Shown: one piece after another, positions 4,871 to 59,380 of the stretch
Layout: every line of letters starts with the position of its first letter
How positions within the stretch are numbered: the stretch's first letter is position 1
DNA from: Azoarcus sp. Aa7
GTDB lineage: Bacteria > Pseudomonadota > Gammaproteobacteria > Burkholderiales > Rhodocyclaceae
Length of the DNA: 64,000 nucleotides
Direction: 5' to 3'
Assembly: GCF_014822185.1 (NCBI RefSeq)
Contig: NZ_QVLR01000010.1
Span: 41,495-105,494, forward strand
Position numbers and translations under genes: made by a program
The notes under the pieces: model-generated
Seen by the model: only the letters and a program-made list of their open reading frames with translations
Told to the model about the DNA's origin: nothing
Database searches by the model: none

Positions 4871-6037
4871 ATGAGCAGGGAATTCCTCTTCACCTCGGAA
4901 TCGGTCTCGGAAGGCCACCCGGACAAGGTCGCCGACCAGGTCTCCGACGGCGTCCTCGACGCCATCCTCGCCGAAGACCCGAAGGCGCGCGTCGCGTGCG
5001 AGACGCTGGTATCGACCGGCCTCGTCGTGATCTCGGGCGAGATCACCACTACCGCCCACCCGAACTACCGCGAGATCGCGCAGGAAGTCATCCGCCGCAT
5101 CGGCTACGACAACTCCGACATCGGCTTCGACTACAAGAGCTGCGCGGTGCTGGCCGCGATCAACCGCCAGTCCGCGGACATCGCACAGGGCGTCAACGAA
5201 GGCGAAGGCCTGGACCTCGACCAGGGCGCCGGCGACCAGGGCCTGATGTTCGGCTACGCGTGCAGCGAGACGCCGTCGCTGATGCCGCTGCCCATTTATT
5301 ATGCGCACCGCATCATGCAGCGCCAGGCTGAGCTGCGCAAGGACGGCCGCCTGCCGTGGCTGCGCCCGGACGCGAAGAGCCAGCTGACCGTGAAGTACGT
5401 CGACGGCAAGCCGGTCGCGATCGACACCGTCGTGGTGTCCACGCAGCACAGCCCGGAAGTCTCACATGCGCAGATCGCCGAGGCAGTGATCGAGGAGATC
5501 ATCAAGCCGGTATTGCCGAAGGAACTGATGCAGGGCGAGGTGCGCTACCTGATCAACCCGACCGGCCGCTTCGTCATCGGCGGCCCGCACGGCGACTGCG
5601 GCCTCACCGGCCGCAAGATCATCGTCGACACATACGGCGGCGCGGCCCACCACGGCGGCGGCGCGTTTTCGGGCAAGGATCCGTCGAAGGTCGACCGCTC
5701 TGCCGCCTATGCCGGCCGCTGGGTCGCGAAGAACATCGTCGCGGCCGGCCTCGCCGACCGCTGCGAGGTGCAGGTCGCGTACGCGATCGGCGTCGCGAAG
5801 CCGGTGTCGATGATGGTGGAGACCTTCGGTACCGGCAAGATCGCCGACGAGAAGATCGTCGAACTGGTGCAGCGCCACTTCGACCTGCGCCCCAAGGCGA
5901 TCATCCAGGAGCTGAACCTGCTGCGCCCGATCTACGGCAAGACGGCCGCCTACGGCCACTTCGGCCGCGACGAGCCGGAGTTCACCTGGGAGAACGCCGA
6001 CAAGGCCGCCGCCCTGCGCGCCGACGCCGGGCTGTAA
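4871..6037 (+). CDS. metK: S-adenosylmethionine synthetase
   Basis: Makes S-adenosylmethionine from methionine and ATP; a cytoplasmic tetramer. The 388-residue protein begins with [20 protein letters not shown], which contains the ATP-site His. [12 protein letters not shown] (about 118-129) and the P-loop-like [16 protein letters not shown] (about 260-275) are both present. ATG at 4871 follows an AGGAGC ribosome site directly after the leader terminator. Together with ahcY and metF at 13-15 kb, the window carries most of the activated-methyl cycle, and both metK and ahcY appear riboswitch-controlled. Confidence 0.98.
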
Positions 6038-51266: not shown

Positions 51267-51449
51267 CGACGTGGAACCTGAACGGGAATCGCTCGCGATT
51301 GTAGGGCAGGCGTCGCAACTGTGGACAACGGGACGGATGCCTCCGTCCTAGTCGGCTTGCCCGGCAGCGGGAGACGCCAATATTCCGCTGTTTCGGGATA
51401 TTGCGTTGCAGTATGCTTAGCCCCCCAAACAGAACATCCAGGGCTTGTC

Positions 51450-53360
51450 GTGCACACTGCCGACCGTGTGGAACACCCGACCGATACGCCAGCCGCCCAC
51501 CAGCGTGCCGGACTGGCCGGACTCGCTGTTTCGGCGATCGGCGTCGTCTATGGCGATATCGGCACCAGCCCGCTGTACACGCTGAAGGAAGTGTTCAACG
51601 GCCCGCACGCCGTGCCGGTGACCCCGGCGAACGTGTACGGGATCCTGTCGCTGGTGTTCTGGGCGCTGATGCTGGTGGTGTCGGCCAAGTACGTGGTCTT
51701 CATCACCCGCGCCGACAACCGCGGCGAAGGCGGGATCATGGCGCTGACCTCGCTCGCGCTGCGCGTCGTCCCCGACGGCCGCAAGGCCTGGGTGCTGTCG
51801 TCGCTGGGGGTGTTCGGCGCGGCGCTGTTCTACGGCGACGGCATGATCACGCCGGCGATCTCGGTGCTGTCGGCAGTCGAAGGCCTCGAAGTCGCGACGC
51901 CGGCCTTCGCGCCCTACGTGCTGCCGATCGCGCTCGTGGTCCTGGTGGGCCTCTTCATGATGCAGCGCCACGGCACCCAGAAGGTCGGGGCGGTGTTCGG
52001 GCCGGTGATGGTGTGCTGGTTCCTCCTGCTGGCGGCCCTGGGCATCTCCGGCATCCGCCTGCACCCGGAAATCCTCGGCGCGATGAATCCCGCGTGGGCC
52101 CTGGGCTTCCTCGCCGACAACCCGCTGCTGGGCTGGCTCGGCCTGGGCGCCGTGGTGCTCGCGATCACCGGCGGCGAGGCGCTGTACGCCGACATGGGCC
52201 ACTTCGGCCGCAAACCGATCAAGCTCGCCTGGTTCACGGTCGTGCTCCCGTCGCTGTACCTGAACTACCTCGGCCAGGGTGCGCTGATCCTCGACCACCC
52301 GGATAACGTCCGCAACCCGTTCTACCTGCTGGTGCCCGACGAGTTCGTGTATCCGATGGTCGGCATGGCGACGCTGGCGACCATCATCGCCAGCCAGGCC
52401 GTGATCTCGGGCGCCTACTCGCTGACGCGCCAGGCGATGCAGCTCGGCTACGCGCCGCGCATGCGCACGATCTTTACGTCGGCGCGCGAGATGGGCCAGA
52501 TCTACGTGCCGAGCATCAACTGGATGCTGCTCGGCGCGGTGATCGCGCTGGTCGTCGGCTTCCGCTCGTCGAGCGCGCTGGCTTCGGCCTACGGCATAGC
52601 GGTGACGATGACGATGATGATCGACACGGTGCTCGCCTTCGTCGTCGTGCGCGCGCTGTGGGGCTGGGGCAAGGTGCAGGCGGGCCTCTTCCTCGCGGTG
52701 TTCCTCACCGTCGATATCGCCTTCTTCTCCGCGACCACGGTGAAGATCCTCGCCGGCGGCTGGTTCCCGCTGCTGATCGGGGCCGTGATCTTCACCTTCC
52801 TGACGACCTGGAAGCGCGGCCGCACGATGCTCAACAACCGCATCCGCACCGACACCATCCCGCTCGACCTGTTCATCCAGTCGATGTTCACGAGCCCCCC
52901 GCCGCGCGTCGCCGGTACGGCGGTGTTCCTGACGACCTGGCTCGACGGCGTGCCTCGCGCGCTGCTGCACAACATCCTGCACAACAAGGTGCTGCACGAG
53001 CGCGTGGTGGTGCTGCTGGTGCATACCGCGGACGTCTCCCACGTCGCGGAGAAGGACCGCATCGAGCTCGAGGAGGTCGACTACGGCTTCTACCGCCTGC
53101 GCCTGACCTTCGGCTTCATGGACGATCCGGACATCCCGGCCGAGCTGGCGCGCTGCGCCGAGCACGGACTCACCTTCGAGACCATGGAGACCTCGTTCTT
53201 CCTCGGCCGCGAAACCATCGTCCGGCGCATGGGCTCGGGCATGGCACGCTGGCGCGAGCGCCTCTTCATCGTCATGTTCCGCAATGCCGGCAGCGCGGCC
53301 GACTACTTCCACCTGCCGCCGAACCGGGTGGTGGAACTGGGTACCCAAGTCGAGCTATGA
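51450..53360 (+). CDS. kup: Kup-type potassium:proton symporter
   Basis: A 636-residue inner-membrane potassium transporter with twelve helices (about 20-440) and a cytoplasmic C-terminal domain. GVVYGDIGTSPLYTLKEVF near the N-terminus and FYGDGMITPAISVLSAVEG are diagnostic; GGEALYADMGHFGR follows. GTG at 51450 gives a typical N-terminus of about 25 residues before helix 1; the longer frame from 51321 is unlikely. Divergent from the BtuF-like gene. Confidence 0.93.
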   Translation: MHTADRVEHPTDTPAAHQRAGLAGLAVSAIGVVYGDIGTSPLYTLKEVFNGPHAVPVTPANVYGILSLVFWALMLVVSAKYVVFITRADNRGEGGIMALTSLALRVVPDGRKAWVLSSLGVFGAALFYGDGMITPAISVLSAVEGLEVATPAFAPYVLPIALVVLVGLFMMQRHGTQKVGAVFGPVMVCWFLLLAALGISGIRLHPEILGAMNPAWALGFLADNPLLGWLGLGAVVLAITGGEALYADMGHFGRKPIKLAWFTVVLPSLYLNYLGQGALILDHPDNVRNPFYLLVPDEFVYPMVGMATLATIIASQAVISGAYSLTRQAMQLGYAPRMRTIFTSAREMGQIYVPSINWMLLGAVIALVVGFRSSSALASAYGIAVTMTMMIDTVLAFVVVRALWGWGKVQAGLFLAVFLTVDIAFFSATTVKILAGGWFPLLIGAVIFTFLTTWKRGRTMLNNRIRTDTIPLDLFIQSMFTSPPPRVAGTAVFLTTWLDGVPRALLHNILHNKVLHERVVVLLVHTADVSHVAEKDRIELEEVDYGFYRLRLTFGFMDDPDIPAELARCAEHGLTFETMETSFFLGRETIVRRMGSGMARWRERLFIVMFRNAGSAADYFHLPPNRVVELGTQVEL

Positions 53361-53399: not shown

Positions 53400-53861
53400 A
53401 TGAAACACATCGTCTCGGCCGTGCCCGGCCGCATACGGGTCCGGGATAGCCATCTGCGCGATGGCGCACGGCATGCCGGACTGGGTGCTGAACTGGCCGC
53501 GCTCGAGGGCGTGAGCTCGGTCGAGGGCAATATCGTCACCGGCAGCTTCCTGCTGCGCTACGATGCGGCGCAGGTCCCTCACCCCGTGATGGAAGCCCGC
53601 GTATCGACCGCAGTCGCCGCCGCGCTCGACCTGCCACCAGTTGCCGCGCAGGAAGAGGCATCCGGCCGACGCACGCTGCGACGCTGGCAGCGCGACCGGC
53701 GCCTCAACACCTGGGCGAAATACGGCATGCTGGGCAGTCTCGGCGCCTCGCTGGCGCTGGCCGCAGCCGGCAGCAAGAAGGCGCATGCGGCGACCGGCGC
53801 CCTGTTCCTCGGCCTGCTGGGCATCCACATGGCGGTACACCGCCGTCATCTGTTCAAATAG
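53400..53861 (+). CDS. HMA-like domain protein with C-terminal membrane segment (candidate fez-type)
   Basis: A 153-residue protein. An HMA_2-like ferredoxin fold lacks the CxxC metal motif and instead starts HIVSAVPGRIRVRDSHLRD, with an Arg-rich GRIRVR. The C-terminal 50 residues contain a basic linker (RRWQRDRRLNTW) and one or two hydrophobic helices (about 107-147). First gene of a tight operon ending in a P1B-type ATPase, which shares the GR[IV]R motif. ATG at 53400, 39 bases after kup. Confidence 0.75.
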   Translation: MKHIVSAVPGRIRVRDSHLRDGARHAGLGAELAALEGVSSVEGNIVTGSFLLRYDAAQVPHPVMEARVSTAVAAALDLPPVAAQEEASGRRTLRRWQRDRRLNTWAKYGMLGSLGASLALAAAGSKKAHAATGALFLGLLGIHMAVHRRHLFK

Positions 53862-53904
53862 CGGGCACACGACCGCTGCCATCTCCGGACCCACGCCGCA
53901 TCCC

Positions 53905-54240
53905 ATGGACGCATTCGAGCAACTGCAACGCTTCTCGCGCAACCTGCGCATCGCCCATCACATCCCGGGGCGCATCCGCCTCAAGCTCGAAGTCGATCTC
54001 GACCAGGGCCAGATGGACGCGATCGGCGACGCGAAACGCTTCGGGCAGGCGCTCGACCACACCCCCGGGATCCGCTCGGTCAAGCTGAACCTGCTGGCCC
54101 GCTCCTGCACCGTCGAATACGACACCGGGGCGATTCCCGCCGCCGCTTGGCCGGACCTGCTCGGCGGGGTGCGCTCGCCCGCGGCCGAGGCCCTGCTCGA
54201 CATCCTCGTCGCCAAGCACCGCGAGGTGTCGAGTGCATAA
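53905..54240 (+). CDS. HMA-like domain protein (candidate fez-type)
   Basis: A 111-residue soluble protein with RIAHHIPGRIRLKLEVD (about 18-34), the same GRIR motif, followed by a beta-alpha-beta core (GIRSVKLNLLARSCTVEYD) typical of HMA_2. No CxxC. ATG at 53905. The end overlaps the next gene by eight bases. Probably works with the ATPase in the same operon. Confidence 0.75.
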   Translation: MDAFEQLQRFSRNLRIAHHIPGRIRLKLEVDLDQGQMDAIGDAKRFGQALDHTPGIRSVKLNLLARSCTVEYDTGAIPAAAWPDLLGGVRSPAAEALLDILVAKHREVSSA

Positions 54241-54928
54241 CTACGACGAGGCGATCCTGCGCGGCCGGCGCATCGAGCGCAAGGCGCCGTTCCCGCCGAC
54301 ACACCAGGCGCTGCGCATCGCGCTGTACGACGAATTCGCCGCCCGCGCCTTCTTCCGCAAGGCGGTCGAGGCCTACGGGCCGCGGGAACCGTTCGCCGCG
54401 AGCCTGAAGGCGGCCGAGGCGCGCATCGCGACGCTCGCACGGTTGTGCCGGCGCCACGGCGTCGCCAGCCCGCTCGATCCCTTCCTGCTGGAGACCAGCC
54501 TCGCCGCAGGCTGGCGCGCGAACTGCGAGCGTGGGCTTGCCGGTACGCTCGGCCGCCTGCAACTGTACGAGACGCTGATCGCGCGCACCGACGGTGGCCT
54601 GCGCAAGAGCCTGCGCCGCCTGCAGGCCGAGGATGCGCGGCAGTTGCAGGTATGGCACGAGGCCGCCGCGGATGCGCTGCGCCTCGAGCAGGTGCACGCG
54701 CAAGGCGGCGTCGCGCCCGAGGAGGCCCACATGGAACACGGGCTGATCGCCGATTTCCTCGAAAAGACTTTCTCCGTGCTCAGCGGCCAGCACCACGCCA
54801 TCGGCGTCGTCGGCCCGCTGCTGGGCAAACTCAACCCCGCACTGCTGGCCGGCATCGCAGCCGGCGGCGCGGGCGTCCTGCTTGCCCGCGGCAAGCGCAA
54901 TTTCACTCACGACGGAAAGGAGGGATGA
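54233..54928 (+). CDS. Ferritin-like helical protein in the fez-type operon
   Basis: A 231-residue protein. A four-helix arrangement is suggested by ALRIALYDEFAARAFFRKAVEAY, AEARIATLARLCRRHG, RLQLYETLIART and LQAEDARQLQVWHEA (residues about 25-145). Glu and His placement resembles ferritin-like/DUF2202 folds, though the second ExxH is altered (EARI). A C-terminal hydrophobic Gly-rich helix follows (about 190-220). GTG at 54233 overlaps the previous stop; the usual HNYDEAILRGRR start supports it. Iron binding is inferred. Confidence 0.65.
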   Translation: MHNYDEAILRGRRIERKAPFPPTHQALRIALYDEFAARAFFRKAVEAYGPREPFAASLKAAEARIATLARLCRRHGVASPLDPFLLETSLAAGWRANCERGLAGTLGRLQLYETLIARTDGGLRKSLRRLQAEDARQLQVWHEAAADALRLEQVHAQGGVAPEEAHMEHGLIADFLEKTFSVLSGQHHAIGVVGPLLGKLNPALLAGIAAGGAGVLLARGKRNFTHDGKEG

Positions 54929-54929
54929 G

Positions 54930-55355
54930 ATGTATCCCGTGCTTCCATTCGCAATCGGCGCCATGGTCGGCGCCGCGGCCGTAAGGCTGCTGAAGACGGT
55001 CAGCCTGCGCGGCAGCCTGGACAAGGCGCAGGAACGACTGCGCGACGCGACGATTTCCAGCCTCGACGCGATCGAACACTCGTCGGCGGGCCTGAAAGCC
55101 AAACTGGCGGCGCCTGCAGCTCCGGAAACCGCAGCCCCGGCTGCGGCCGCATCCGCCGACCCGGCAGTTGAAACCGCGCCGGCAAGCAAGCCCCGGGCGC
55201 GCCGCCGCAGCAGCCCTGTCACCAGCGCAGCCAAGACGGCCGATGCCACCAAGGCCGCCAAGACCGCCGAAGCGGCCGCAGCGCGCCCGCGCACACGCAA
55301 GAAAGCCGCGGCTCCGGTTCCGGTGCCGCCTGCCGACACCGGAGACTCGGCCTGA
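54930..55355 (+). CDS. Small membrane-anchored Ala/Lys/Pro-rich protein in the fez-type operon
   Basis: A 141-residue protein. N-terminal hydrophobic helix (about 3-20, PVLPFAIGAMVGAAAVRLL), an amphipathic helix (about 28-55) and a long low-complexity Ala/Pro/Lys/Arg-rich tail (about 60-141). Begins one base after the preceding stop. The basic disordered tail on a membrane anchor resembles scaffold proteins of compartments, but that is inference. Confidence 0.68.
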   Translation: MYPVLPFAIGAMVGAAAVRLLKTVSLRGSLDKAQERLRDATISSLDAIEHSSAGLKAKLAAPAAPETAAPAAAASADPAVETAPASKPRARRRSSPVTSAAKTADATKAAKTAEAAAARPRTRKKAAAPVPVPPADTGDSA

Positions 55356-55717
55356 TGCGCGCGATGCGTAAGCTTCCGGTCAAGGTGAAGGCCGGCGAGA
55401 TGCCGGCGAATTTCGTCCGCGGCTTCGTCGCCACCGGCCTGCTGGCGGCCCTGCAGGAGCCGGCCGGGCGCGCCACGCCGGCGGCCGGCCGGGCCGTGCT
55501 GAAGCAGGCGCTGCAGGGCGGCACAGCGCTGGCGGCCGGCTGCGCGGCAGCCGATGCCTGGCAACGGCAGGATTTCCGCGGCGTGCTGGTGGCCGTCGCG
55601 AGCGGCGCGGCGGGTCTGGCCGCGATCGATTACCTGGCGCGCCAATCCGCGCGCCGCAGCAACGGAAAAAGGGAGAAGCACCTTGGGCAAGAAGAAGCAC
55701 AAGAAAGCGCGGCATGA
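55355..55717 (+). CDS. Small Gly/Ala-rich hydrophobic protein in the fez-type operon
   Basis: A 120-residue protein with two hydrophobic, Gly/Ala-rich segments (about 22-33 and 50-93, e.g. GTALAAGCAAADAW and GVLVAVASGAAGLAAIDYL) and a charged C-terminal tail. ATG shares bases with the preceding stop (TGATG). No known family recognised; predicted membrane-associated. Confidence 0.65.
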   Translation: MRAMRKLPVKVKAGEMPANFVRGFVATGLLAALQEPAGRATPAAGRAVLKQALQGGTALAAGCAAADAWQRQDFRGVLVAVASGAAGLAAIDYLARQSARRSNGKREKHLGQEEAQESAA

Positions 55718-56051
55718 CGAGTACGCCGCCGGCTACGCGCCGGGCGGCTGGGGCAGCGGCTACGGCATGCCCGCCGGCGGCCAGGGCGGCCCCGCGGGCC
55801 ACGGCTTCGACGCGGGCCTGCTGCACGCGATGCCCGGCCTGCTGAAGTCGCGCCAATACGACCAGTTCCTGCTCGGCGCCGCGATCGGCGCGGCCGCCGC
55901 CTACGTGCTGAGCGACGAGGAGCTGCGCGGCAAGCTGCTGAAGACGGGCATGAAGCTGTATGCGGGCATGCTCGGCGGCGTCGAGGAGTTCAAGGAACAG
56001 ATGGCCGACCTGAAGGCCGAAGTTGAGGCGGAGCAGCACGGCGGCGCATGA
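55683..56051 (+). CDS. YtxH-like Gly-rich small protein in the fez-type operon
   Basis: A 122-residue protein. A lysine-rich start (GKKKHKKARHDEY), a Gly-rich stretch (about 20-45), one hydrophobic helix (QFLLGAAIGAAAAYVLSDEE, about 58-77) and a C-terminal amphipathic helix (LGGVEEFKEQMADLKAEVEAE). This fits YtxH/DUF5132-like proteins. No ATG; TTG at 55683 lies behind GGGAGAAG and overlaps the preceding gene by 35 bases. Its end overlaps the ATPase start by four. Confidence 0.68.
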   Translation: MGKKKHKKARHDEYAAGYAPGGWGSGYGMPAGGQGGPAGHGFDAGLLHAMPGLLKSRQYDQFLLGAAIGAAAAYVLSDEELRGKLLKTGMKLYAGMLGGVEEFKEQMADLKAEVEAEQHGGA

Positions 56052-58135
56052 GCGGCGGGTCGTGGTTCCGCTCGCTGACGGTCGCGCACCGCACGCGCGG
56101 ACGGGTACGCTTCCGCTTCGCGTGCGCTCCCGGCACGCCCGCGGCGCCACTCGCGATCGAACGCGCGGCGGAAAACATCCCCGGCGTGCATGAGGCGCGG
56201 GTCAATCCGCGCGCGCATTCGCTGGTGCTGACTTTCGATCCCGCGGCAACCGGGGTCGAGGCCTTGCAGCAGGCCGTCGCGGCACTGCCGCCGCCGGGCG
56301 CGCGTGCTGCGCGCGCGAACACCGTCGACGCCGAGGGAGGTGCCGGGCCGCTGGTGGCCAGCCTCGCGACCCTGCTGGGCACCCCCTACCTGCCCGCGTC
56401 GGTGCAGTTGCCGGTCACGCTCGGCGCCGCGGCACCGCTCATCAAGCACGCCCTCGACGACTACCGCGACAACGGCATTTCCTCGCACGTGCTCGAGGCG
56501 CTGGCGGTGTCGATCTCGCTCGCGCGCGGCGACTTCAGCGCCGCCAACACCACGACCTTCATGCTCGCGCTCGGGGAGTACCTCGAAGACTCGATCGCGC
56601 GGCGCTCGGACGATCTGCTCAAGCACCTGCTGCGCCCGTCCAGCGACGAGATCTGGATCGTGCGTGACGGACAGGAAGTGCTCGTCCCCGCGGCCGAGGT
56701 GAGCGTCGGCGATACGGTGGTCGTCGGCACCGGCGCCGTGATCCCGGTCGACGGCACCGTGCTCGGCGGCGAAGGCACAGTGAACGAGGCCGCGATGACC
56801 GGCGAGAGCGTCGCGGTCGTGAAGGGGCGCGGCGACGCAGTGCTCTCGGGCACGCTGATCGAGGAAGGCCGGCTGCAGATCTACGCCGAGCAGGTGGGCA
56901 CGCGCACCGCCGCGGCGCGCATCGCCGACTACGTCGAACAGTCACTCACGGCGAAGAGCGAGGCGCAGCTCGGCGCGGCTCGCCTCGCCGACCGCCTGGT
57001 GCCCATCGTGCTCGGGCTGGCAGGTTCGACCTACCTGCTGTCGCGCGACTGGCGCCGCGCCGCCGCGGTGCTGCAGGCCGACTACTCGTGCGCGCTGAAA
57101 CTGGCGACGCCGGTCGCGTTCAAGTCGGCGATGTACCGTGCCGGGCGCTCGGGCATCCTCGTGAAGGGTGCGAGCGCGCTGGAGCGGCTGGCCGACGCCG
57201 ACACCTTCGTCTTCGACAAGACCGGCACGCTCACGGCCGGCCGGCTCGCGGTCACCGACTCGGTGACCTTCGACCCCAGCTTCACCGCCGACGACCTGAT
57301 CTGCCTCGCCGCATCGGTCGAGGAGCATTACTTCCACCCCCTTGCGCTGGCGGTCGTCGCGGCGGCGAAGGAGATCTCCGGCAAGCACTTCGATCACCAG
57401 GAAGTGCAGTTCATCGTCGCGCACGGCGTCGCCAGCGTGATCGACGGCCGGCGCATCGTCGTCGGCTCGCGCCACTTCATCGAGGACGACGAGAAGATCG
57501 ATGTCTCGGCGCACATCGAAACGATCGACCGCCTGTACCGCGAGGGCAAGACGCTGCTGTACATCGGCTTCGGCGGCACGCTGCTGGGCGTGCTGGCACT
57601 GAAGGACGAAGTACGGGCCAACACCGCCACGACCATCGCCCGGCTGCGCGGACTGGGCGCCAAACGAATCCTGATGCTGACCGGCGACCACCACGAACGC
57701 GCCGCCGAGCTCGCCGCGGAGCTGGGCCTCGACGCCTTCCATGCCGAACTGCTGCCCGAGCAGAAGGCGCACATCGTCGAGGAGCTGGGCCGGCAGGGCG
57801 CGCGCATCGCCTTCATCGGCGACGGCATCAACGATGCCCCCGCGCTCGCCGGCGCCCACGTCGGCGTCGCGATGCAGAAGGGTGCCGATATCGCCCGCCT
57901 GACCGCCGACGTCGCCCTGCTGGAGGACGACATCGGCTGTGTTGCCGACGCCAAGGCGCTCGCGCAGGCGACGATGAAGCGCATTCGCAACAACTACCGC
58001 CTGACCGTCGGACTCAACACCGCGATCCTCGGCGCGGCGGCGATCGGCGTGCTGTCGCCGGTGACGACGGCGATGCTGCACAACGGCAGCACGATCGCGA
58101 TCCTGCTCAATGCGCTGCGCGGCCGCTCGGCCTGA
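56048..58135 (+). CDS. P1B-type ATPase, P1B-6/FezB-like
   Basis: A 695-residue P-type metal ATPase. In place of a CxxC metal-binding domain the N-terminus carries Arg-rich AHRTRGRVRFRFA (about 13-25). Conserved parts are AMTGES (actuator), FDKTGTLT with phosphorylated Asp390, LTGDHHERA and GDGINDAPAL (hinge). The membrane metal-site motif is DYSCALKLATP (Cys348), where classical copper or zinc pumps have CPC. This combination is characteristic of the P1B-6 group that includes FezB, the ATPase of ferrosomes. Expected role: iron transport into a membrane compartment. Last gene of the operon; ATG at 56048. Confidence 0.88.
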   Translation: MSGGSWFRSLTVAHRTRGRVRFRFACAPGTPAAPLAIERAAENIPGVHEARVNPRAHSLVLTFDPAATGVEALQQAVAALPPPGARAARANTVDAEGGAGPLVASLATLLGTPYLPASVQLPVTLGAAAPLIKHALDDYRDNGISSHVLEALAVSISLARGDFSAANTTTFMLALGEYLEDSIARRSDDLLKHLLRPSSDEIWIVRDGQEVLVPAAEVSVGDTVVVGTGAVIPVDGTVLGGEGTVNEAAMTGESVAVVKGRGDAVLSGTLIEEGRLQIYAEQVGTRTAAARIADYVEQSLTAKSEAQLGAARLADRLVPIVLGLAGSTYLLSRDWRRAAAVLQADYSCALKLATPVAFKSAMYRAGRSGILVKGASALERLADADTFVFDKTGTLTAGRLAVTDSVTFDPSFTADDLICLAASVEEHYFHPLALAVVAAAKEISGKHFDHQEVQFIVAHGVASVIDGRRIVVGSRHFIEDDEKIDVSAHIETIDRLYREGKTLLYIGFGGTLLGVLALKDEVRANTATTIARLRGLGAKRILMLTGDHHERAAELAAELGLDAFHAELLPEQKAHIVEELGRQGARIAFIGDGINDAPALAGAHVGVAMQKGADIARLTADVALLEDDIGCVADAKALAQATMKRIRNNYRLTVGLNTAILGAAAIGVLSPVTTAMLHNGSTIAILLNALRGRSA

Positions 58136-58150: not shown

Positions 58151-59380
58151 GTGACCATCCCCACCCACCGGATGTTGCCGCCCCTTGCGATGCTTCACCG
58201 CCTGCTCGCCTTCGCGCTCGCGCTGTCGTGTTTAGCTGCACTGCCGGTCCGCGCAGGAGCGGCACCGCAGCAATGGCAGGGCGCCGCGTTCGCCGGCGAC
58301 CGGGATGCCCTGGGGAAACTTGCCGCGGCCGGGGCCAAGGTCGTCCGCGTCTATGGCGAAGCCGACGCGTGGGTGCTCGACGAGGCGCAACGCCTCGGCC
58401 TGCGCGTGGTGATGGGCCTGTCGATCGCGTATCCGCGCGACGCCGACGCGCTGCGCGCGCAGGAGCAGGCCATCCGCCGCTTCGTCGAACGCCACCGCAA
58501 GCATCCTGCGCTGCTCGCCTGGGGGGTGGGCAACGAGGTCGAAACCGGCGCAGCCGACCCCTTGCCGACGTGGCGCGAGATCGATCGTCTCGCGCGCATC
58601 ATCAAGACGATCGACCCCGCGCACCCGACCCTGATGGTCGTCGTCGATGGCGGCATCGAACGCCTGAAGCTGCTCGCCACCTGCTGCGCGAACGTCGATC
58701 TGCTGGGCATCAACGCCTATGCGGGGGCGGCATACACCCTGCCGCAGCGCGTGCGCGACGCCGGCATCACGAAACCGGTCGTCATCGGCGAACTCGGGCC
58801 GCTGGGCCAGTGGCAGGCCGGGACAAAGCCGTGGGGCGCGCCGGTCGAGCCCACCAGCAGCGAGAAGGCCGCGTTCTTTCGCGACGTGCTCGCCTTCCTG
58901 CGCACACAGCCGCAGATCGCGGGCGCCTTTCCCTTCCTGTGGGGGGCGAAGCAGGAGCAGACCGAGACCTGGCACGGCCTGCTGCTCGCGGACGGCAGCC
59001 TCACGGCGATGAGCGACGCGCTGGCGCAGGCGTGGGGCAAGCCCGTCACGGAGCCTGCGCCGGCCATCCGCGGCATCGGCATCGCGGCGGACGCATTCGC
59101 GCCGGGCCAGGAAGTGTCGGCCGGCGTGGATGCTGCATCTTTCGATGGGTCCGCCCTGCGCACCGAGTGGAAAGTGCTGGCCGAAGCGACCGACTTGCGC
59201 GGGGGCAGCGGCATCGAGACGCCCCCGGCGCGCATCGCGGTACCCGTGCTGCACGCCGACGCGGCCGGCGTGCGCTTCCTCGCCCCGCAGCGGCCGGGCG
59301 CCTACCGCCTCTTCATCACGATCCGCGACCGCCAAGGCAAGGCGGCCACCGCGAACCTGCCCTTCCTCGTGCGCGATTGA
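58151..59380 (+). CDS. Exported glycoside hydrolase-like TIM-barrel protein
   Basis: A 409-residue protein with a Sec signal (core LLAFALALSCLAAL). The TIM-barrel domain has the acid/base Glu in AWGVGNEVET (about 120) and the nucleophile candidate Glu in VVIGELGPLG (about 210), as in clan GH-A (GH2/GH5-type). The C-terminal 90 residues are beta-rich. Start is GTG 58151 or ATG 58172/58190; the last gives the shortest signal peptide. Only 15 bases from the ATPase gene, but function looks unrelated. Substrate unknown. Confidence 0.75.
   Translation: MTIPTHRMLPPLAMLHRLLAFALALSCLAALPVRAGAAPQQWQGAAFAGDRDALGKLAAAGAKVVRVYGEADAWVLDEAQRLGLRVVMGLSIAYPRDADALRAQEQAIRRFVERHRKHPALLAWGVGNEVETGAADPLPTWREIDRLARIIKTIDPAHPTLMVVVDGGIERLKLLATCCANVDLLGINAYAGAAYTLPQRVRDAGITKPVVIGELGPLGQWQAGTKPWGAPVEPTSSEKAAFFRDVLAFLRTQPQIAGAFPFLWGAKQEQTETWHGLLLADGSLTAMSDALAQAWGKPVTEPAPAIRGIGIAADAFAPGQEVSAGVDAASFDGSALRTEWKVLAEATDLRGGSGIETPPARIAVPVLHADAAGVRFLAPQRPGAYRLFITIRDRQGKAATANLPFLVRD

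Follow-up and report, generated by a model that had tools for sequence, protein, structure and literature searches.

Does a bacterium whose genome carries probable genes for a membrane-bound iron store build that store, and why would a ferritin-like gene lie among them? This question is raised by seven genes at positions 53400-58135 of a 64,000-nucleotide stretch of the genome of Azoarcus sp. Aa7 (assembly GCF_014822185.1, contig NZ_QVLR01000010.1, positions 41,495 to 105,494 of the forward strand), hereafter called the window. An initial annotation, made from the letters alone, had proposed a candidate ferrosome (fez-type) operon of seven tightly packed, mostly overlapping genes. All seven are present on the + strand with four overlaps, and they encode two HMA_2 proteins, a predicted ferritin-fold protein, three small membrane proteins, and a P1B ATPase (genes A to G in order of position). 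Ferrosomes were named only in 2022, and the original work is said to have identified their ATPase, FezB, as a P1B-6 pump. We consider it probable that the locus is a fez-type operon whose products form membrane-bound iron granules, and that the gene that makes it seven, gene C, encodes a membrane-anchored protein of predicted ferritin fold that lacks four of the five diiron ligands. By its genes, the operon would place fez-type ferrosomes in Aromatoleum, whose members degrade aromatic compounds anaerobically.

Relatives of the operon were collected by scanning genomes of named species with G, and the best 80 of 120 relatives were kept as loci. Four further loci from plasmids brought the number with a G match to 84 (loci are numbered, the window being L001), and families upstream of G were found with iterated profiles. 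Gene order was counted in 69 loci, leaving aside 15 of the 84 whose contig is short upstream. The order is A-B-D-E-F-G in 38 loci, A-B-C-D-E-F-G in 11, B-C-D-E-F-G in 3, and partial or rearranged in 17. A-B-D-E-F-G is a conserved unit.

The same six families in the same order occur in Rhodopseudomonas sp. BR0M22 (L047), which is one of the 15 short-contig loci and hence stands outside the 69. One of the five ATPase matches in this strain is close to the query (69%), and the other four reach at most 38%. Its relative R. palustris CGA009 is reported, in the passages available of PMC12016538, to form ferrosomes with the products of six fez genes, RPA2333-2338. The window's operon and that of Rhodopseudomonas each begin with an HMA/two-helix protein and end with a P1B-6-type ATPase; they differ in the extra gene C between B and D and in the kup gene that directly precedes the operon in the window lineage. 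Because the operon matches the Rhodopseudomonas six-gene operon gene for gene plus one, ferrosomes are likely built here. The comparison of the small proteins that had been called for, made with this Rhodopseudomonas operon, places them in the same families, and together with the ATPase tree described below it supports the fez-type reading, from which we infer the organelle itself. Two proteins had been singled out as additions to the known set. The ferritin-like C is indeed extra, but the protein with the Ala/Lys-rich tail, D, is one of the six standard genes and its tail varies, so only C counts as an addition and D as a special one is rejected.

Other layouts were also encountered. Six loci (L039, L045, L053, L054, L076, and L077) have the order B-D-F-G with a FezC-like A downstream on the opposite strand, and in these the E profile also recognizes the F frame. 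Replicons listed as plasmids carry complete or partial fez-type operons in Arcobacter (L003), Azospirillum (L002), and Cereibacter (L004, typed as conjugative). In the cyanobacterium Cyanobium sp. CH-040 (L073), C, F, and G lie together, with a B-like gene about 4 kb upstream.

The ATPase G carries Tyr-Ser-Cys (YSC) in place of Cys-Pro-Cys (CPC), as had been noticed at the outset, and this motif recurs in 67 of 79 G rows by pattern search and in 110 of 120 listed database homologues. The pair HN in the last helix, given as the mark of P1B6 pumps in transmembrane helix 6 in an excerpt of PMC9374683, is found in 77 of the 79 rows, window included. It had been suggested that the ATPase be placed relative to copper and zinc exporters. 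For this, a FastTree tree of 86 rows was built from 78 of the 84 G loci, the window, and seven outgroup pumps, namely CopA and ZntA of E. coli and five CPC pumps from the window's own genome; rows without an exact DKTGTLT or shorter than 580 amino acids were dropped. The 79 G rows stand apart from the seven CPC pumps, which form a separate group (support 100). The sister group of the seven Aromatoleum rows comprises 36 rows, mostly from Alphaproteobacteria and with Rhodopseudomonas among them (support 97 for all 43), in a tree that has long branches, those of L003, L004, L005, and L073 among them. In profile searches G exceeds the cut-offs for heavy-metal P1B ATPases and for the cadmium family, and it falls below that for copper pumps. 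Despite the cadmium-family score, the tree, YSC, and HN led us to reject a copper or zinc exporter identity, and G is P1B-6-like by sequence. G is 97% identical to the A. tolulyticum ATPase, which, with the kup gene placed ahead of the operon in four Aromatoleum loci, suggests an Aromatoleum-like betaproteobacterial host.

The two proteins described as HMA-like both score above the cut-off of Pfam HMA_2 (E 2e-8 for A and 3.4e-7 for B), and the B profile finds its best match in 72 loci. An Arg-rich motif can be seen directly in A (VPGRIRVR), B (IPGRIRLK), and G (TRGRVRFR), where CxxC would be expected. Searched as a regular expression, GR[IV]R occurs in 55 of the 58 rows for A, 70 of the 72 for B, and 60 of the 79 for G, with the window's own copy counted in every set, while CxxC occurs in 1, 0, and 1 of these rows, respectively (for G, in the N-terminal part). 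The replacement is a family trait rather than a chance feature of this locus.

Of 59 A rows, 58 have histidine H129 and 58 have H143, and the predicted model of A, an HMA-like N-terminus followed by two long helices, has a mean predicted local distance difference test score (pLDDT) of 91.6. In the available text of PMC10979944, FezC, tested in Desulfurispirillum indicum, is described as a DUF4405-like cytochrome whose in vitro spectra resemble those of haem b. Because the conserved histidines and the HMA/two-helix model match such a cytochrome, A looks like a FezC and may bind haem. The likeness, in DUF4405-like helices and conserved histidines, is drawn to that description, and A differs in a DUF4405 score that lies below the cut-off.

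Gene C had been called ferritin-like. Pfam assigns no family to the window protein, the DUF2202 model included, but the predicted fold and the relatives of C both point to a four-helix ferritin fold. Among 30 relatives, 13 match DUF2202, and near relatives carry the NCBI name 'ferritin'. A stand-alone relative aligns with MJ0754 over the first two helices, a weak match (E 0.066) in which E and ExxH are in register. When solved structures were searched with the C profile, only chance-level rows came up, among them a bacterioferritin at E 0.74. C shares with DUF2202/rubrerythrin-like and bacterioferritin-fold proteins the predicted four-helix fold and recognizable ligand columns, and it differs from them in ending with a hydrophobic segment, in having a second conserved residue set, in lying within a fez-type operon, and in its diiron ligands, which are incomplete in 18 of 19 betaproteobacterial operon copies. 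The terms 'ferrosome' and 'ferritin-like' do co-occur in two papers, PMC12574912 among them. A literature search that did not cover the original ferrosome papers returned no text joining 'ferrosome' with 'Aromatoleum' and no mention of 'DUF2202'.

In the diiron ligand columns, where E, ExxH, E, and H are expected, the window protein reads E34, A61, R64, T105, and Q137, and so keeps one of five ligands. A second set is conserved: W94, N97, R100, E152, H155, G159, H169, and E177. All of these except N97 are kept in 19 of 19 betaproteobacterial C operons, of which only one (L125) has the complete five ligands. This count of 19, in which L120 is possibly the same species as another Aromatoleum row, omits the window, L099 and L122 (taken as the same contigs as L025 and L046), and L003, L073, and L075, which are not Betaproteobacteria. 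The ligand columns read differently from lineage to lineage (EARTQ, EQRTY, ECREY, EVREQ, and QTRTD). The C operons form a natural series from five ligands (L125, L003, L075) through four (L010, L011) to one (window), and gene C offers a handle on whether ferritin-type chemistry handles iron inside ferrosomes. In Candidatus Dactylopiibacterium carminicum (L020), two overlapping C-like frames at 5130-5930 may represent a broken C gene.

The distribution of C was surveyed at several taxonomic depths. Among 300 genomes of the window's order, the ATPase (E up to 1e-150) occurs in six and a C-like match in nine; all six ATPase genomes are among the nine, and in each of the six C lies 1.0-2.2 kb upstream of the ATPase. 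The other three C-like matches are stand-alone frames of 140-150 amino acids in genomes without the pump. These keep all five ligands, lack W94, R100, and E152, and are too short for the anchor. In a family sample the ATPase was found in 11 of 121 genomes, one of them at only 41% identity (L129, in which only G is recognized). C adjoins G in three of ten further family genomes (L120, L122, and L125), and L128 starts too near the contig end to judge C. In a sample of 369 genomes of the class, the ATPase occurs solely in the window's own genome; two other genomes of the same genus were sampled, one with the ATPase and one without.

Selection on the operon was estimated as the ratio of nonsynonymous to synonymous substitution rates (dN/dS) between the window and loci L006-L009. 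The values are 0.19-0.24 for C, 0.10-0.13 for G, 0.07-0.21 for B, 0.27-0.32 for D, and 0.25-0.40 for A. C is under purifying selection and is maintained, less strictly than the pump G, and on these ratios a pseudogene was rejected.

Several observations weigh against the interpretation of the locus as a ferrosome operon with a modified ferritin-fold subunit. The operon is tied to a proven ferrosome operon by way of the Rhodopseudomonas relative and not CGA009 itself, and the comparison was made without the named FezB and FezC proteins of D. magneticus, S. putrefaciens, C. difficile, and D. indicum. G exceeds the cut-off of the cadmium-family model NCBIfam TIGR01512 (375.9 versus 313.5 bits). 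DUF4405 scores below cut-off on the window's A (16.9 versus 26.7 bits; E 0.009) and matches 5 of 26 A members. Foldseek E-values for C are no better than 3.4e-3. Moreover, 23 of 50 database C relatives keep all five ligands plus E152/H155, as does operon L125, and all five ligands are also kept by the C proteins of L003, L073, and L075. C is missing from most loci seen, and because five of the ten further family genomes have the operon without it (L121, L123, L124, L126, and L127), it need not accompany the operon even in this family. Finally, the 300 bases preceding A in the window contain no Fur-like site; the best candidate there matches 10 of 19 positions, an ordinary value.

Iron control is therefore not visible in the window, given the lack of such a site and an operon that begins 39 bp after kup; a promoter in or before kup may drive it. 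Control by the iron-responsive regulator Fur is reported for the ferrosome genes of C. difficile in passages of PMC12574912. Across 56 loci, Fur-like sites matching at least 13 of 19 positions lie within 300 bases upstream of A in nine, versus 1.1% of 2447 background tiles, and sites matching at least 14 lie there in four, versus 0.25% of the tiles. In L003, one of the nine, the site is not at the operon start because A lies behind G; when the three loci with A behind G (L003, L004, and L056) are omitted, the count is 8 of 53. An iron ABC transporter adjoins the Azospirillum plasmid copy of the operon, and genes for FeoA and TonB-dependent receptors adjoin the Cereibacter copy. Two ferritin-family genes lie elsewhere in the window's genome, and the operon would therefore supplement protein-based iron storage rather than replace it.

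If ferrosomes are built as we propose, G would take Fe2+ out of the cytoplasm and pump it into the lumen of small membrane vesicles. The conserved histidines of A would hold haem b between them, and electrons that A passes across the vesicle membrane would govern whether the iron of the stored mineral is Fe2+ or Fe3+. The second HMA-type partner, B, would be soluble. D and F both combine a short glycine-rich membrane segment with an amphipathic or disordered part; they would cluster the pump and shape or coat the vesicle, whose membrane would also contain E. C would be located on this membrane too, would in the window lineage no longer oxidize iron at a ferritin-type center, and may bind iron, haem, or a partner through the second residue set and so aid docking, loading, or nucleation. 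The fold, the hydrophobic segment, and the second set are kept while the ligands are lost in differing combinations, which suggests a non-ferroxidase role for C at the ferrosome membrane.

A bolder version of this proposal, which we put forward only tentatively, is that C founds a new ferritin-fold class. Its members would be membrane-anchored ferrosome subunits that have given up the diiron ferroxidase center several times and in different ways, and that act via W94, R100, E152, H155, H169, and E177 to dock, load, or seed iron. If so, two separate iron stores, the protein cage and the membrane organelle, would be fused into one.

The same residues could be read differently. C might be a working ferroxidase of a ferrosome operon with shifted ligands, its site rebuilt from E34 plus E62, E133, or D134, or from the second set. 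The retained fold and purifying selection are compatible with this, the acidic residues E62, E133, and D134 adjoin the lost positions, and E152 with H155 forms ExxH in 64 of 64 rows (L003, L073, and L075 left out). However, position 64 is R, position 105 is T, and the losses vary between lineages, a pattern that fits relaxed constraint better than one rebuilt site. We regard a shifted ferroxidase center as unlikely.

Another alternative does away with the organelle. The operon could encode a membrane efflux platform for Zn2+ or Mn2+ similar to PacL-CtpC of mycobacteria, with G exporting the metal across the cytoplasmic membrane and D and F as PacL-like scaffolds. According to the portions available of PMC9374683, PacL1 combines a membrane segment with a repeat region and a disordered tail, and holds the P1B6-like pump CtpC in foci. 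The build of D and F is comparable, so that both systems would combine a P1B6-like pump with small membrane-anchored scaffolds that have repeats and disordered tails. Some databases name G relatives 'manganese/zinc-transporting P-type ATPase C' or 'cation-transporting P-type ATPase C', and G passes the cadmium-family cut-off. In the same portions of that paper, however, CtpC keeps CPC where G has YSC, and Pfam finds neither DUF1490 nor DUF6110 in the D and F families, so a PacL/DUF6110 identity of D or F was rejected and kept as an analogy only. The six-gene order is that of Rhodopseudomonas, and iron genes adjoin two other copies of the operon. An efflux platform seems quite improbable, and very improbable indeed is that C is a functionless, decaying passenger, because, despite the four missing ligands and its absence from most of the operons seen, its reading frame is open in the window, its dN/dS against four close relatives is somewhat above that of B and below those of A and D, and all 19 betaproteobacterial C operons keep the second set.

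Returning to the fez-type operon itself, its coordinates and those of its neighbors are listed in the table.

Table. The seven-gene operon and flanking genes in the window
Feature	Position	Strand	Length	Description
kup	51321-53360	+ (as operon)		Kup-type K+ transporter; stop 39 bp upstream of operon
gene A	53400..53861	+	153 aa	FezC-like, predicted haem-b membrane protein; N-terminal HMA_2 with PGRIR replacing CxxC, then two long helices with H129 and H143
gene B	53905..54240	+	111 aa	Second HMA_2 protein, IPGRIRLK
gene C	54233..54928	+	231 aa	GTG start; predicted ferritin-fold domain ~20-157; hydrophobic C-terminal segment ~200-218
gene D	54930..55355	+	141 aa	N-terminal membrane segment, amphipathic stretch, variable Ala/Lys/Pro-rich tail (alignment, hydropathy)
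gene E	55355..55717	+	120 aa	Two hydrophobic segments, no known family (alignment, hydropathy)
gene F	55683..56051	+	122 aa	TTG start; glycine-rich membrane segment, then Glu/Ala/Lys amphipathic helix (hydropathy)
gene G	56048..58135	+	695 aa	P1B-6-type ATPase (FezB-like); N-terminal HMA-like domain with GRVRFR; YSC in ion-binding helix, HN in last helix
downstream gene	58151-59380			Glycosyl-hydrolase-like TIM barrel

Adjacent genes overlap by 8 bases (B/C), 1 (D/E), 35 (E/F), and 4 (F/G), and are separated by 43 bp (A/B) and 1 bp (C/D). Among the small proteins, E, like C, has no Pfam family in the window, D yields only a chance-level row, and the best matches of F (YtxH and DUF5132) both fall below cut-off. 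A search of PHROGs returned nothing for A, C, D, E, or F. The hydropathy peak of D is at residue 3.

The kup gene also precedes the operon in four Aromatoleum loci (L006-L009) and not within L010 and L011. The glycosyl-hydrolase-like gene, which has no obvious link to iron, occupies the same place downstream of the operon in four Aromatoleum loci.

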